Assembly: GCA_017433125.1 (NCBI GenBank)
Contig: JAFRHT010000028.1
Coordinates: 1-38,216 of the forward strand
Length of the DNA stretch: 38,216 nt
Direction: 5' to 3'
Source of the DNA: Solobacterium sp.
GTDB lineage: Bacteria > Bacillota_I > Bacilli_A > Erysipelotrichales > Erysipelotrichaceae
Below, one piece after another: positions 24,642 to 30,841 of this stretch. Position numbers and translations under genes: made by a program. Position 1 is the stretch's first letter; the number at the start of each line of letters is the position of its first letter. The notes beneath the pieces were generated by a model. That model saw only the letters and a program-made list of their open reading frames with translations. It was not told the DNA's origin and made no database searches.

Positions 24642-24674
24642 GAAAAATGACCGGTACATGCCGGTCATTTTTTT
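24642..24674. terminator. Bidirectional terminator after the aldo/keto reductase
   Basis: AAATGACCGG and CCGGTCATTT pair around TACATG, with T runs on both strands. It overlaps the last codons of the convergent flavodoxin-like gene. Confidence 0.85.
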
Positions 24675-26017
24675 CTGGCTTTTTCAATGACTGCCCGGTA
24701 TGGCATCAGCATCCCTTCGGTCATGCTGACGCCGCTCTTTTTCTGCAGCGCCGGGCTGTTCATCAGCGCTGACACCAAGTACATGCCGGCCACCCGGGCC
24801 GGATGCTTCTGGGGGAAGTCGTAGAAACCGTGTTCCTTATAGAACCGGTGGTCTTCCTTCATCAGTCCCTGCATCTGCCAGATCAGGTCCCGGAAGATTT
24901 TCATCCCGCCGACCCCGTAGAAATCCGCCGGCTGTCCGTAATGGTTTTCCCGGGCATATTCCAGGGTCCTGGCCAGCTGTTCGAGCGCGGTATCCGGATC
25001 GTGTTCATCCGTAACGATGCCGGCGGGATAATTCCCGCCGACCTGGGCCCGGGCGTGCATGACCGTACGCAGGTTTTCCTCGGCGGCAAGGCTGCCGGAA
25101 ACCAGGTAGCCGACCGGCTTGCCCATGGTCACTGTCCGGTGCCCGTTGCAGAACTGGCGGTCATCATATGTCTTGAAGATGCTGCCCATGCTGTGATCCC
25201 TGACCGTGAAGGCATAGACGATGACATCAGCGCTGTTGATATGCTCCCGCAGATACGTATCGAACCCGTCGCGGTGGAAGCACTTGCCGTCGGAAGCACA
25301 GCGGAAACAGCCGATACAGCCGCCCGCAAAGGGAAAATCGTGCAGATTGACCAGTTCACAGTCCATGTTCAGGACACTGACAAACCGCCGGATCATGGCC
25401 TGCAGGTACGGGTTGGGATGTTCACTGTCATCATCATAGACCAGGGCTGCCCGGCCTCTTTTTTTCATCATGTTCAGGCACGGGGCCGAAGCCTTATGGC
25501 GCACACTGCTGCCGGCATGGATCACCGGGTCCTGCGCGTAGCCGTTTTCCATCTGCCACAGGACAAAGCGGAAAAAGGACACAGCTTCCTGCTGTCCTTT
25601 CTCATGAAGCAGGTCCTCCATGTCTGCCGACAGGCCGCCGGCATACTTCAGGCCGAGGTCCGCGCAGTTGTCAATGATGAACTGATGGGCTGTGACATCA
25701 TAGAAATGCTTGGAAGTCGTGATCTGGGCCGCGTACCGGCCGCGGACATCGACCTGGTTTTCCTTCATCAGTTCGATAAACCGGTGGAGCTGGGCCGGCA
25801 CCAGGAAAGTATAAACCGGATAACAGAAGAGGATCAGGTCCGCTTCCTGCAGGGCTTTGGCATAAGGGCTGAAGTCCCGCTCGATTTTCCTGATTTCCCG
25901 TCCGACGTGACAGATCTCCATATCCCCTGTGAGACCGCATGCCTGCAGGTAATGCACCGTCTGCAGGGTAATGCTGTCGGGACCGGCCGGGGAGCCGTTA
26001 AGTACCAGTATTTTCAT
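24665..26017 (-). CDS. Tandem flavodoxin-fold NAD(P)H-dependent oxidoreductase with cysteine motif
   Basis: The 450-residue protein seems to hold two flavodoxin-like domains. The first (1 to about 160) begins KILVLNGSPAGPDS, the FMN phosphate loop, and has LFCYPVYTFLVPAQL. The second (about 188-330) begins RAALVYDDDSEHPNPYLQAM and contains GCIGCFRC...KC (Cys 234, 237, 240, 246), the cysteine arrangement of iron-sulphur flavoproteins, followed by ADVIVYAFTVRDHSMGSIFK. A C-terminal helical tail of about 100 residues is unassigned. It probably transfers electrons from NAD(P)H through FMN; no partner is encoded beside it. Confidence 0.78.
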   Translation of the reverse strand: MKILVLNGSPAGPDSITLQTVHYLQACGLTGDMEICHVGREIRKIERDFSPYAKALQEADLILFCYPVYTFLVPAQLHRFIELMKENQVDVRGRYAAQITTSKHFYDVTAHQFIIDNCADLGLKYAGGLSADMEDLLHEKGQQEAVSFFRFVLWQMENGYAQDPVIHAGSSVRHKASAPCLNMMKKRGRAALVYDDDSEHPNPYLQAMIRRFVSVLNMDCELVNLHDFPFAGGCIGCFRCASDGKCFHRDGFDTYLREHINSADVIVYAFTVRDHSMGSIFKTYDDRQFCNGHRTVTMGKPVGYLVSGSLAAEENLRTVMHARAQVGGNYPAGIVTDEHDPDTALEQLARTLEYARENHYGQPADFYGVGGMKIFRDLIWQMQGLMKEDHRFYKEHGFYDFPQKHPARVAGMYLVSALMNSPALQKKSGVSMTEGMLMPYRAVIEKARKK

Positions 26018-27361: not shown

Positions 27362-29221
27362 TTAACTGCTCAGTTTTTCCCACTCGTCATAGAGATGCGC
27401 CAGCTCGTTGTGAATCTCATCAATCCGCTCGTCCAGCTGGTTCATCTTCTGATAATCCTGATAGTATTCCGGTTCGAACCGCAGGGCCCGCATGTCTTCC
27501 AGTTCGGTTTCCTTCTCCGTAATTTCCTTTTCCAGCCGGGCAATCATGCGCCGCTGTGACTCAGGAGAGAGCCGCTTTTCCCTGACTTCGGCAGCCGGCG
27601 CGGCAGCCGCTGCCGGAACGGCAGGTTCCCGCTCACTCTGCCGGTCAGCCATGTATTCCGTGTAGGTCATGGGTATATACCGGGCCCCGGTTTCATCGAT
27701 AAACAGCAGGGCCGTGGCCAGCTGGCTGATGAAATACCGGTCATGGGATACAAACAGAATGGTTCCGCTGAAGGATCTCAGGGCATCTTCCAGAGCTTCC
27801 TTGCCGGGAATGTCGAGGTGGTTGGTCGGTTCATCCAGGATCAGGAAATTGGCATGCTGAAGCAGCAGCCGGGCCAGGGCCAGACGTACTTTTTCACCGC
27901 CGGACAGCACATCCACGGTCTTGAACACATCGTCGGCCGAGAACAGGAACTGCCCCAGCACCGAACGGATGGTGGTGCGGTCCAGGTCCGGATATTCGTC
28001 CCACAGTTCCTCCAGCACGGTTTTGCCGGAAGAGAACTGGGCCAGCTGCTGATCAAAATAGCCCGTTTCGATCTGGTGTCCGTACAGCATACTGCCGCCC
28101 AGAGGGGGAAGAAGCCGCATCAGGGTCTTCACCAGGGTGGATTTGCCGGTGCCGTTGGGCCCGATAATGGCCACCCGGTCTCCCCGGCGCAGTTCCATCG
28201 TCACGGTGCAGAGCGGACGGTCATAGCCAACCGCAAGCCGGTCTGTTTCCAGCACCCGTTCCCCGCCCTTGATCCGCGGGGTAAAGACCGCATGGAATGT
28301 CCGGTCATCCGCCGCTTTGACCGGATCGATCTTCTCCATCCGGTCCAGATATTTGATCTTGGACTGGGCAAAGGCTGCTTTGTTCTTCTTGTAGCGGAAT
28401 TTTTCAATCAGCGCTTCCAGCCGCTCGATATCCTTCTGCTGGCGGTTATAGGCTGCCTGCTGGCGTTCCAGGCTGTTCTGCTTCTGCTGCACATAGGATG
28501 TATAGTTGCCGGTATAGCGGGTCATCTTCCCGTATTCCAGATCATAGACAACATCGACAACCCGGTCCAGGAACATCCGGTCGTGGGAGACAATAACGAC
28601 AGCTTTGGGATAGTTCTTCACATAGCCTTCCAGCCATTCGATGGTCTCCAGATCCAGGTGGTTGGTCGGCTCATCCAGCACCAGGATATCCGGTTTGGAC
28701 AGCAGCAGCCGGACAAACGCGATCCGGGTCTTCTGTCCGCCGGAAAACTCCCCGATCCTCCGTTTCAGGTCTTCCGGTCCGAACCCGAAACGGGTAAACA
28801 CCGTCCGCATTTCCGTATCCCAGTTATAGCCGTTAAGCGCCTCGAATTTCTCCTGCGCTTCGGCATACCGGTTCAGCAGTTTTTCGCTGACCTCACCCTG
28901 CATCTGCGCTTCCATCTCCTGCATCTGCCGCTGCAGCGCAAAAACCGGCGCGAACACCTTCATCAGTTCCTGTTCCACCGTGCTGCCATCGTCCTCCAGC
29001 ACTTTCTGGGCCAGATAGCCGATCGTGGTGCCGTTGACCATGGACACATTGCCACGGTCAAAGGCATATTCACCGCACATGCAGCGCAGAAAAGTCGTCT
29101 TGCCGCAGCCATTGCGGCCGACGATGGTTATCTTTTCATTTGACTTGATCTCAAACTGTACATCTTCGAAGACGGCGTCAGCGCCGAAGTACTTGGATCC
29201 ATGACTGACCTGATAGAGCAT
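27362..29221 (-). CDS. ABC-F family ribosome-associated ATPase
   Basis: The 619-residue protein has two ATPase domains and no membrane segment. Domain 1: Walker A VGRNGCGKTT, signature FSGGQKTRIAF and ILVLDEPTNHLDLETIEWLE. Domain 2: IIGPNGTGKST, LSGGEKVRLALA and FLILDEPTNHLDI. The charged interdomain linker (about 240-310) and a C-terminal coiled coil (about 555-619), preceded by an Ala/Pro-rich stretch, give a YdiF/Uup-like layout. ABC-F proteins act on the ribosome, in translation or sometimes antibiotic protection. ATG at 29221 is chosen because MLYQVSHGSKYFG is the family start. No ribosome binding site is visible, and the -10 is eight bases upstream. Confidence 0.92.
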   Translation of the reverse strand: MLYQVSHGSKYFGADAVFEDVQFEIKSNEKITIVGRNGCGKTTFLRCMCGEYAFDRGNVSMVNGTTIGYLAQKVLEDDGSTVEQELMKVFAPVFALQRQMQEMEAQMQGEVSEKLLNRYAEAQEKFEALNGYNWDTEMRTVFTRFGFGPEDLKRRIGEFSGGQKTRIAFVRLLLSKPDILVLDEPTNHLDLETIEWLEGYVKNYPKAVVIVSHDRMFLDRVVDVVYDLEYGKMTRYTGNYTSYVQQKQNSLERQQAAYNRQQKDIERLEALIEKFRYKKNKAAFAQSKIKYLDRMEKIDPVKAADDRTFHAVFTPRIKGGERVLETDRLAVGYDRPLCTVTMELRRGDRVAIIGPNGTGKSTLVKTLMRLLPPLGGSMLYGHQIETGYFDQQLAQFSSGKTVLEELWDEYPDLDRTTIRSVLGQFLFSADDVFKTVDVLSGGEKVRLALARLLLQHANFLILDEPTNHLDIPGKEALEDALRSFSGTILFVSHDRYFISQLATALLFIDETGARYIPMTYTEYMADRQSEREPAVPAAAAAPAAEVREKRLSPESQRRMIARLEKEITEKETELEDMRALRFEPEYYQDYQKMNQLDERIDEIHNELAHLYDEWEKLSS

Positions 29222-29229
29222 ACGATGAT

Positions 29230-29235
29230 ATTGTA
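29230..29235 (-). promoter_or_regulatory. Promoter -10 of the ABC-F gene, predicting a nearly leaderless mRNA
   Basis: TACAAT on the minus strand ends eight bases before the ATG. The -35 region is only T-rich. Confidence 0.4.
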
Positions 29236-29242
29236 TCTGATT

Positions 29243-29275
29243 TGGCAAAAAAGAAAACAGCCTTTGCAGGCTGTG
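29243..29275 (-). terminator. Terminator of the rex/AsnRS-like operon
   Basis: On the minus strand CAGCCT and AGGCTG pair around GCAA, followed by TTTTCTTTTTT. Confidence 0.8.
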
Positions 29276-29278
29276 ATA

Positions 29279-30145
29279 TCACGCATCGTACAGACACGCC
29301 AGCAGATCATCCAGTGACAGGGTAATCAGCGTATAGGCATATTCCCCCGCTTCCGGACTGATGCAGGTTCCGGCAAATGCCCGGCCCTCCAGCTGCAGGG
29401 CAAAGCGGGCGCCGTTCACCTGCTTCTGCCACGTCAGGAGCGGCTGATCCCCGGCAGATTCAACGGTCTGCTTCCGCTCGATCACGGTTTCCAGCAGCTG
29501 TCTGAGCCGCCGCATGCGGCCGTTCCGGTTCAGGCACTGCATCTCGGTCTGACAGTTCTCCAGCACATAGGAAACACAGAACTTGGCCAGGTCCTCGAGC
29601 AGATCCATGCCGTCATCCTCATCCGCAAAGGCCATTGCCGTCTGCAGATACCACCGGCCGTCCTCCGGCAGAACCGCATAGACATCCCGGAAATTCATGG
29701 TCAGAATCCCGGCATTCTCCAGCAGGCTGTCATACAGCATGAAGCCCTGGCTCTGAAAGAATTCATGTACCGCCATGAACAGGCTCGAACGGATCCGGCG
29801 CCGGCTGATCTCACGGTCTCCGGCAAACTGCTCCGGGCGCCCCTTCGCCTCACAGGTAACTTCTGACGCGTCCACAAAGAAACGGCCGTCCTTCCCGGTT
29901 TCACAATACCGCCCGACAACAGAAACTGCCGCTCCGGCTGCGGGACAGGCACTGCCCGCCGGCATGCGCACTTCCGCAAAGCCGAGGCAGGTACCGTCAC
30001 TGATTTCGGCAATCACAAAACCATCTTCCTGCCGGCAGGTTCTGATCCATCCCTGCAGAAAAACCGTATCAATCTGGTCCTTTTCCATATCCGAACCGCT
30101 GCGGAACAGATCAAACAATTCCCTCACTGTGATCTCAATAGCCAT
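29279..30145 (-). CDS. Degenerate asparaginyl-tRNA synthetase-derived protein, probably without aminoacylation activity
   Basis: The 288-residue protein is a shortened relative of AsnRS (normally about 460). An N-terminal OB-fold of the anticodon-binding type (about 24-100: VFLQGWIRTCRQEDGFVIAE) is followed by a motif-1-like helix (RRRIRSSLFMAVHEFFQSQG, 115-134) but without its invariant proline. The AsnRS segment after motif 2 is recognisable (AMAFADEDDGMDLLEDLAKF, 170-189), whereas the motif 2 FRxE region and about 40 residues before it are deleted, and motif 3 (GxGxGxxR) is absent. It follows rex by 20 bases with GGAGGAAGCGTT before ATG, and a terminator follows. The open frame and good signals argue for a working gene with a new role, such as RNA binding. 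Confidence 0.72.
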   Translation of the reverse strand: MAIEITVRELFDLFRSGSDMEKDQIDTVFLQGWIRTCRQEDGFVIAEISDGTCLGFAEVRMPAGSACPAAGAAVSVVGRYCETGKDGRFFVDASEVTCEAKGRPEQFAGDREISRRRIRSSLFMAVHEFFQSQGFMLYDSLLENAGILTMNFRDVYAVLPEDGRWYLQTAMAFADEDDGMDLLEDLAKFCVSYVLENCQTEMQCLNRNGRMRRLRQLLETVIERKQTVESAGDQPLLTWQKQVNGARFALQLEGRAFAGTCISPEAGEYAYTLITLSLDDLLACLYDA

Positions 30146-30165
30146 AACGCTTCCTCCGGATGCTG

Positions 30166-30789
30166 TTATTTCTGCATCGAATTGGCTTCAAAAACAAGTT
30201 CCTGAATACTTGAGACAACATCGATTTCCTTGACATGCACACCTTCCGGCACAGAGAAATGCTCAGAAGTGAAATCAACAATCCCATTAATGCCGTTGGC
30301 GATCAGAAGATCCACCGTTTCCTGCACATCCCTGGAGATGCACAGGATGGCAATCCGGCAGCTCTCCGGTTTTTTCCCGGCAATGTCCCGCAGATCATAG
30401 ACCGGCACACAGGCATCCTTCACCTTCTCCGGTTCCAGGTCAAAAGCACATTCGATCTCTCCGACAACGTGGTCCCAGTTATTGTAATTCAGCAGGGCTT
30501 TACCGAGATTCCCGCAGCCGACCAGGATGATTTTCTCCTGGAAATTCATCCCGAGTTCATTGGAAAAAATCCGGATAATCGTGTCAACATCATATCCGTA
30601 TCCCTGTTTGCCGAGACTCCCCAGGAAACTGAAATCCCTTCTGATGGTTGTCGGCTCAATGGAAACATATTCTGCCAGTTCCTTTGACATAATCCTTGTT
30701 TTCCCGCCGGCCCGCAGTTTCCGAAGTGCTTTCAGATATACAGGATATCTGTGCAGTGTTGCTTTCGGTACCTGTTTCTTATTACTCAT
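30166..30789 (-). CDS. rex: Redox-sensing transcriptional repressor Rex
   Basis: The 207-residue repressor senses the NADH/NAD+ ratio. An N-terminal winged helix (about 10-75: ATLHRYPVYLKALRKL, ELAEYVSIEPTTIRRDFSFL, then a GKQGYGYDV wing) is followed by a Rossmann domain with VGCGNLGKAL (GxGxxG) and a C-terminal domain-swap helix (SIQELVFEANS). In fermenters Rex represses NADH-reoxidising genes when NADH is low. It has its own promoter downstream of tsaD and is co-transcribed with the AsnRS-like gene. Confidence 0.95.
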   Translation of the reverse strand: MSNKKQVPKATLHRYPVYLKALRKLRAGGKTRIMSKELAEYVSIEPTTIRRDFSFLGSLGKQGYGYDVDTIIRIFSNELGMNFQEKIILVGCGNLGKALLNYNNWDHVVGEIECAFDLEPEKVKDACVPVYDLRDIAGKKPESCRIAILCISRDVQETVDLLIANGINGIVDFTSEHFSVPEGVHVKEIDVVSSIQELVFEANSMQK

Positions 30790-30811: not shown

Positions 30812-30841
30812 ATTATATAATCAAATCTTCAGCAATGTGAA
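30812..30841 (-). promoter_or_regulatory. Promoter of rex
   Basis: On the minus strand -35 TTCACA, 18 bases, -10 TATAAT. TTGAT...ATCAA flanks the -10 as an inverted repeat. The -35 overlaps a sequence resembling a Rex half site. Confidence 0.65.

Follow-up and report, generated by a model that had tools for sequence, protein, structure and literature searches.

An asparaginyl-tRNA synthetase very probably retired in place and maintained as a non-catalytic protein in Solobacterium and related rumen and gut bacteria

Introduction

What is the function of a protein that descends from an aminoacyl-tRNA synthetase (aaRS) and has lost the residues needed for catalysis? The question is raised by a gene of Solobacterium sp. 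that lies downstream of rex, in the stretch of DNA considered here (the window: 38,216 nucleotides of contig JAFRHT010000028.1). A sequence-only reading regarded the gene as a derivative of asparaginyl-tRNA synthetase (AsnRS), co-transcribed with the redox-sensing repressor, and proposed for it a role as a regulator or RNA-binding factor tied to redox state. Below, we describe the locus and its occurrence in related genomes, the residues that the shortened protein (the stump) has lost and kept, and the route of Asn-tRNA synthesis in the organisms that carry it. It should be noted that the genomes compared are partly fragmented assemblies. Our conclusion is that this lineage of rumen and gut bacteria has, with high probability, retired its own AsnRS in place and maintained it as a non-catalytic protein, and that the protein probably has a second job.

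The asnS locus

The order tsaD–rex–asnS is constant across the genus, and a gene for an ABC-F ATPase adjoins asnS in most of the loci whose sequence extends that far. Most relatives have an intact AsnRS of 461–465 residues at this tsaD–rex–asnS–ABC-F locus; the window has the stump (Table 1). Since the stump occupies the ancestral asnS locus and is the only AsnRS-derived gene found in its genome, it is taken to be the orthologue reduced in place, and not a duplicate. The other matches to AsnRS profiles in that genome are AspRS and, judged by sequence and distribution, LysRS; a full-length asnS, which the sequence-only reading had thought worth seeking, was not found elsewhere in the genome.

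Table 1. Features of the window that are discussed in the text
Feature	Position	Strand	Remarks
Stump	29279..30145	(-)	AsnRS-derived, very probably non-catalytic; 288 aa; ancestral asnS locus
N-terminal helix and OB domain of stump	29839..30145	(-)	Helix, residues 1–36, highly conserved; OB domain, residues 37–102
Motif-1 helix and following segment	29726..29797	(-)	Residues 117–140; class II dimer-interface element, strongly conserved
Collapsed motif-2 hairpin and helix	29528..29698	(-)	Residues 150–206; FRDVY...W...AFAD..ED
Ribosome binding site region	30146..30159	(-)	CCGGAGGAAGCGTT, ahead of stump ATG
Terminator-like hairpin and T-run	29257..29274	(-)	TTTCTTTTTT, directly 3' of stump; consensus scan
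rex	30166..30789	(-)	Redox-sensing repressor; upstream neighbour of stump; NF003989, 205.7 bits, over cut-off
Promoter-like site	30812..30841	(-)	5' of rex; TTCACA-18-TATAAT, 11/12
ABC-F ATPase	27362..29248		Adjoins the asnS/stump locus
450-aa protein	24665..26017		Weak profile matches

The frame of the stump is open and begins with an ATG, 20 nt after the stop codon of rex, behind a strong Shine–Dalgarno sequence, as had been read from the letters. The promoter-like site upstream of rex probably drives both genes, and the hairpin after the stump is likely to mark the end of a rex–stump transcript. A consensus scan found one terminator-like site where shuffled sequences gave 1.6, so that the argument for the hairpin is its position; its sequence is identical in two other stump loci (L039 and L041). 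Most relatives, including those with a normal AsnRS, share a TTCACA(A) element ahead of rex. It is conserved at the –35 region of the rex promoter and may belong to a Rex operator (autoregulation).

Two neighbouring genes may be mentioned here. The best NCBIfam match of the ABC-F protein is OptrA, at 573 bits (cut-off 1450), and it scores over the cut-off of the general ribosomal-protection-like family; its conserved position beside asnS suggests that it is probably a housekeeping protein. The 450-residue protein has only weak matches, to flavodoxin- and azoreductase-like profiles.

Distribution and origin of the stump

An intact asnS scoring over the cut-off was present in 16 of 22 genomes tested, and in none of the five stump genomes among them (G000, G006, G019, G026 and G029); none was found in G027 either, which is 70% complete. 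With G176, G179 and G159, the genomes that carry a stump number eight (further loci are L010/L039, L011/L041, L040/L133, L012, L013, L136 and L138/L142). Where measured, the proteins have 288–340 residues, ranging from 333–340 in L012/L013 to 288 in the clade of the window. All eight genomes form one clade, with a support of 98/100, in a tree of seven markers from 44 genomes (in which G176 is row L040). Two independent reductions had been suggested by a tree of Rex and TsaD that parted the two main groups of stumps; a single origin is preferred because seven genes from 44 genomes unite all eight.

Short AsnRS frames in G091, G143, G154, G190 and G194, each of which stops at the end of a contig or close to it, were excluded from the count. 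Neither AsnRS nor AspRS was matched in G079 and G096, which were left out as controls; they are given as 98–99% complete, and a gap in the data or the search is the likely reason. G150, a 1.1 Mb genome of the same family, has one AspRS and no AsnRS-like match at an E-value of 1e-8; it may have lost AsnRS and kept no stump.

Kinship with AsnRS and the residues lost

The stump matches the AsnRS profiles NF003037 (E=2.2e-15, 56.6 bits; cut-off 414) and TIGR00457 (E=1.4e-12, 47.2 bits; cut-off 342.6), in both cases far below the cut-off for the functional family, and matches PF00152 at E=0.076 only. No Pfam match reached the gathering score; weak matches to RMI2 and Peptidase_A2B below it were judged to be chance. 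The AF2 model, of moderate confidence (pLDDT 75, pTM 0.60), is nearest to AsnRS structures (VIA Z 19.6–21.0), a likeness of fold that is partly expected from the presence of intact AsnRS in the input alignment. Synteny, the class IIb fold and the profile matches place the stump in the AsnRS lineage, and the kinship read from the letters is upheld.

Losses were assessed at positions that are invariant in 24 intact relatives. The motif-2 loop FRAEN...H..E is excised in the stumps, in agreement with the deletion of the FRxE region reported earlier. Also missing are the SGQL segment with its Gln, the first Glu of EPE and the Arg of GGSQRE. Motif 3, which had been read as absent, remains as a degraded segment (GFGLGFER to TLSLDD), its Arg being replaced by Asp in six stumps and by Ala in G159. 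The loss of the motif-1 proline claimed for the window holds throughout its clade (Leu) and does not extend to L012/L013. A functional AsnRS has the ATP-binding Arg/Glu loop of motif 2 and the Arg of motif 3; the stump has neither.

Most of the anticodon contacts have also gone. These we take to be the positions equivalent to R28, F35, Q46 and E93 of E. coli AspRS, of which the window clade retains the Arg only. The other three are Ile, Glu/Cys/Ala and Phe in this clade (I45, E58 and F90 in the stump of the window), and it lacks most of the anticodon contacts expected of a functional AsnRS. The Gln is lost from all six stumps tested; L012 and L013 retain the Glu, and L012 also the Phe.

What has been kept

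Residues invariant in intact AsnRS are unevenly kept in the five stumps compared: all five retain eight of the 11 that fall within the N-terminal 37 residues, nine of 23 around motif 1 and a single one of the 43 in the C-terminal 71 residues. Among the stumps of the window clade, residues 117–206 have a low dN; high values are seen for the OB domain, the linker and residues 207–250. Constraint therefore falls on residues 1–36, 117–164 and 165–206, with the OB domain among the fastest-evolving parts, and HEFFQxQGF, FRDVY and AFA..ED are present in all three stump sublineages.

The dN/dS of the stump is 0.11–0.24, as against 0.013–0.033 for intact AsnRS and about 0.01–0.14 for the neighbouring genes. 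No stop or indel was found among four genomes over a dS of 0.4–0.56, and none of the stumps of the eight genomes has an internal stop, which disposes of decay in a single strain. When neutral evolution was simulated over the same dS, the frame remained open in none of 2000 runs, with a mean of 7.7–9 stops. The dN/dS, the open frame and the simulation together indicate a constrained protein and not a pseudogene. The regime of constraint is nonetheless a relaxed one; that its dN/dS is several-fold above that of intact AsnRS implies a selected role that tolerates much change. It has the features of a non-catalytic aaRS-like protein, namely an aaRS fold, loss of the catalytic residues and maintenance of the gene, and the earlier claim of an intact, selectively maintained protein without catalysis is borne out.

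An indirect route to Asn-tRNA

In the five of the eight stump genomes that were searched for them (G000, G006, G019, G026 and G029), AsnA, AsnB and GlnRS are absent; the 14 other genomes tested for AsnA all have it. What the stump clade does carry is a second AspRS and a second GatCAB. Operons of the order aspS2–gatC2–gatA2–gatB2 are found in G029 (L086), G179 (L163) and G159 (L162), and partial ones in G000 and G006. AspRS2 was found in five of the eight stump genomes, as against none of 23 AsnRS-positive genomes. G019 (92% complete) and G176 (77%), both incomplete assemblies, yielded none, and G026 has a GatCAB2 operon with no aspS2 on its contig.

AspRS2 carries the motif RDHGG, as do mycobacterial tRNA(Asp/Asn) ligases, and AspRS1 has Leu or Phe at the same position; the His of this motif is presumably the mark of a non-discriminating AspRS. 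T-boxes lie upstream of the operons in G000, G026 and G179, with the specifier AAC (Asn) according to the Rfam alignment; in the G159 stretch none reached threshold. It appears, then, that direct charging of Asn-tRNA in the stump clade has been replaced by tRNA-dependent amidation.

In G179 there are two tandem operons (L163, 4809–13625), gatCAB2b alone and aspS2–gatCAB2a, each with its own AAC T-box; if the GatCAB1 of close relatives is added, this genome would have three GatCABs. In G000, AspRS2 is split across the ends of contigs C114, C34 and C120 (L082, L083 and L084), and two different GatCAB2 sets follow the broken gene, probably two copies of the cassette that were collapsed by assembly.

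Possible functions of the stump

The course of events that we favour is as follows. The non-discriminating AspRS2 would form Asp-tRNA-Asn, which GatCAB2 would then amidate, and this swap from direct to indirect synthesis would have made the catalysis of AsnRS dispensable. The AsnRS gene was then very probably shortened in place, with its catalytic loops cut out in frame and the residues for ATP and the amino acid lost, while purifying selection held a trimmed core sheet together with the helices of the N-terminus and of motif 1. The retention of these elements under selection indicates that the product is folded, non-catalytic and probably dimeric. The conserved class II dimer helix and the lost anticodon contacts point to protein contacts and not to the reading of tRNA; we infer that the stump dimerises and acts in that way.

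What it might contact is a matter for more tentative proposals. The molecular role that we would guess at first, with low confidence, is that of a scaffold or accessory subunit of the replacement route, binding AspRS2, GatCAB2 or both as a transamidosome helper. Rather more speculatively, the former AsnRS, stripped of catalysis and of anticodon reading, could be a structural third component that brings AspRS2 and GatCAB2 together as an Asn-transamidosome. The stump and the AspRS2/GatCAB2 genes are on different contigs and not in one operon, so that the link between them is genomic co-occurrence, which, lying within one clade, counts as one evolutionary event.

An alternative of about equal weight, although again one we would not call probable, is that the stump keeps a moonlighting role that AsnRS already had, performed by the N-terminal helix and the dimer core and unrelated to tRNA charging, and that this role saved the gene when the enzyme became redundant. 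In several pairs of intact AsnRS conservation is lowest over the N-terminal 36 residues, and in the stumps it is highest there (L012/L013, 86% against 57% for the OB domain; window/L014, 69% against 25%), and the eight invariants kept there fit the same view. Against it, no other relative that lacks AsnRS has been seen with such a piece (G150 gave no match).

The redox-linked regulator or RNA-binding factor of the sequence-only reading, expressed with rex and binding tRNA or other RNA through its OB fold, is unlikely. The probable rex–stump transcript, a TTCACA that could belong to a Rex site and the OB fold predicted by the AF2 model speak for it. However, rex and asnS were neighbours ancestrally and are so in the same way in relatives with an ordinary AsnRS, most of which also have the TTCACA(A) element, so that linkage to rex is not specific to the stump and is no particular argument for a redox role. 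The RNA-binding fold stood as a predicted fold, and did not stand as an anticodon reader, given the loss of three of the four contacts and the fast evolution of the domain. A new enzymatic or ligand-sensing activity, such as the sensing of asparagine or an adenylate, is more unlikely still: there is a precedent in HisZ, a regulator of HisG that is paralogous to HisRS and has no adenylation activity (PMC9437257), but the substrate residues of SGQL, EPE and GGSQRE and the Arg residues of motifs 2 and 3 have all gone. Least probable is a functionless relic, its frame open by chance or through selection on operon spacing, for while the stump evolves faster than its neighbours (84–88% against 92–99% identity) and has shortened progressively between L012/L013 and the window clade, its dN/dS, the lack of stops and indels and the simulations argue against decay, as do its retention in three deeply separated sublineages and deletions that preserve the frame and fall mostly within catalytic loops.

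Relation to known systems

The usual account of aaRS-like proteins is that they are products of duplication, with the original enzyme still at work. Here, it appears, the sole copy was retired once the route of asparagine decoding had changed, and was then kept in non-catalytic form; a search of open-licence papers turned up no account of an AsnRS reduced in this way. The stump is orthologous to bacterial AsnRS (TIGR00457/NF003037) by synteny and sequence, and shares its OB domain and class IIb core. It differs in length and in having lost the motif-2 loop, the motif-3 Arg, the substrate residues and most anticodon contacts. Because one genus holds intact, intermediate and most reduced forms, the worth of a synthetase fold without catalysis, and the recruitment of a replaced enzyme by the indirect route, become testable.

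AsnA and the archaeal AS-AR, an AsnRS-like asparagine synthetase, also come from the AspRS/AsnRS lineage. They kept the catalytic core and lost the anticodon domain; the stump is the reverse, the OB fold being kept and catalysis lost. In function the closest precedent is HisZ, the regulatory subunit of HisG, which resembles class II synthetases; it likewise has the fold without adenylation and is maintained for another role. HisZ, however, arose as a paralogue and its catalytic partner is known, whereas the stump is the sole orthologue converted. Possible models for an accessory role in a two-step route to aminoacyl-tRNA are Hp0100, the Asn-transamidosome helper of Helicobacter pylori (PMC8406222), and, as an analogue, SepCysE of methanogens (PMC5688128); on present evidence neither is homologous to the stump.

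Control of tRNA-dependent amidation by a T-box, as in the AspRS2–GatCAB2 operons, has reportedly been described in Clostridium acetobutylicum by Saad et al. in 2012 (cited in PMC4206432), where, to go by the title, the routes are redundant. In the stump clade, by contrast, the direct enzyme has gone and the stump is left. As regards glutamine, in those genomes of the genus that were tested for both (G001–G035), GlnRS and GatCAB1 exclude one another, which may represent a second switch between direct and indirect routes inside one genus.
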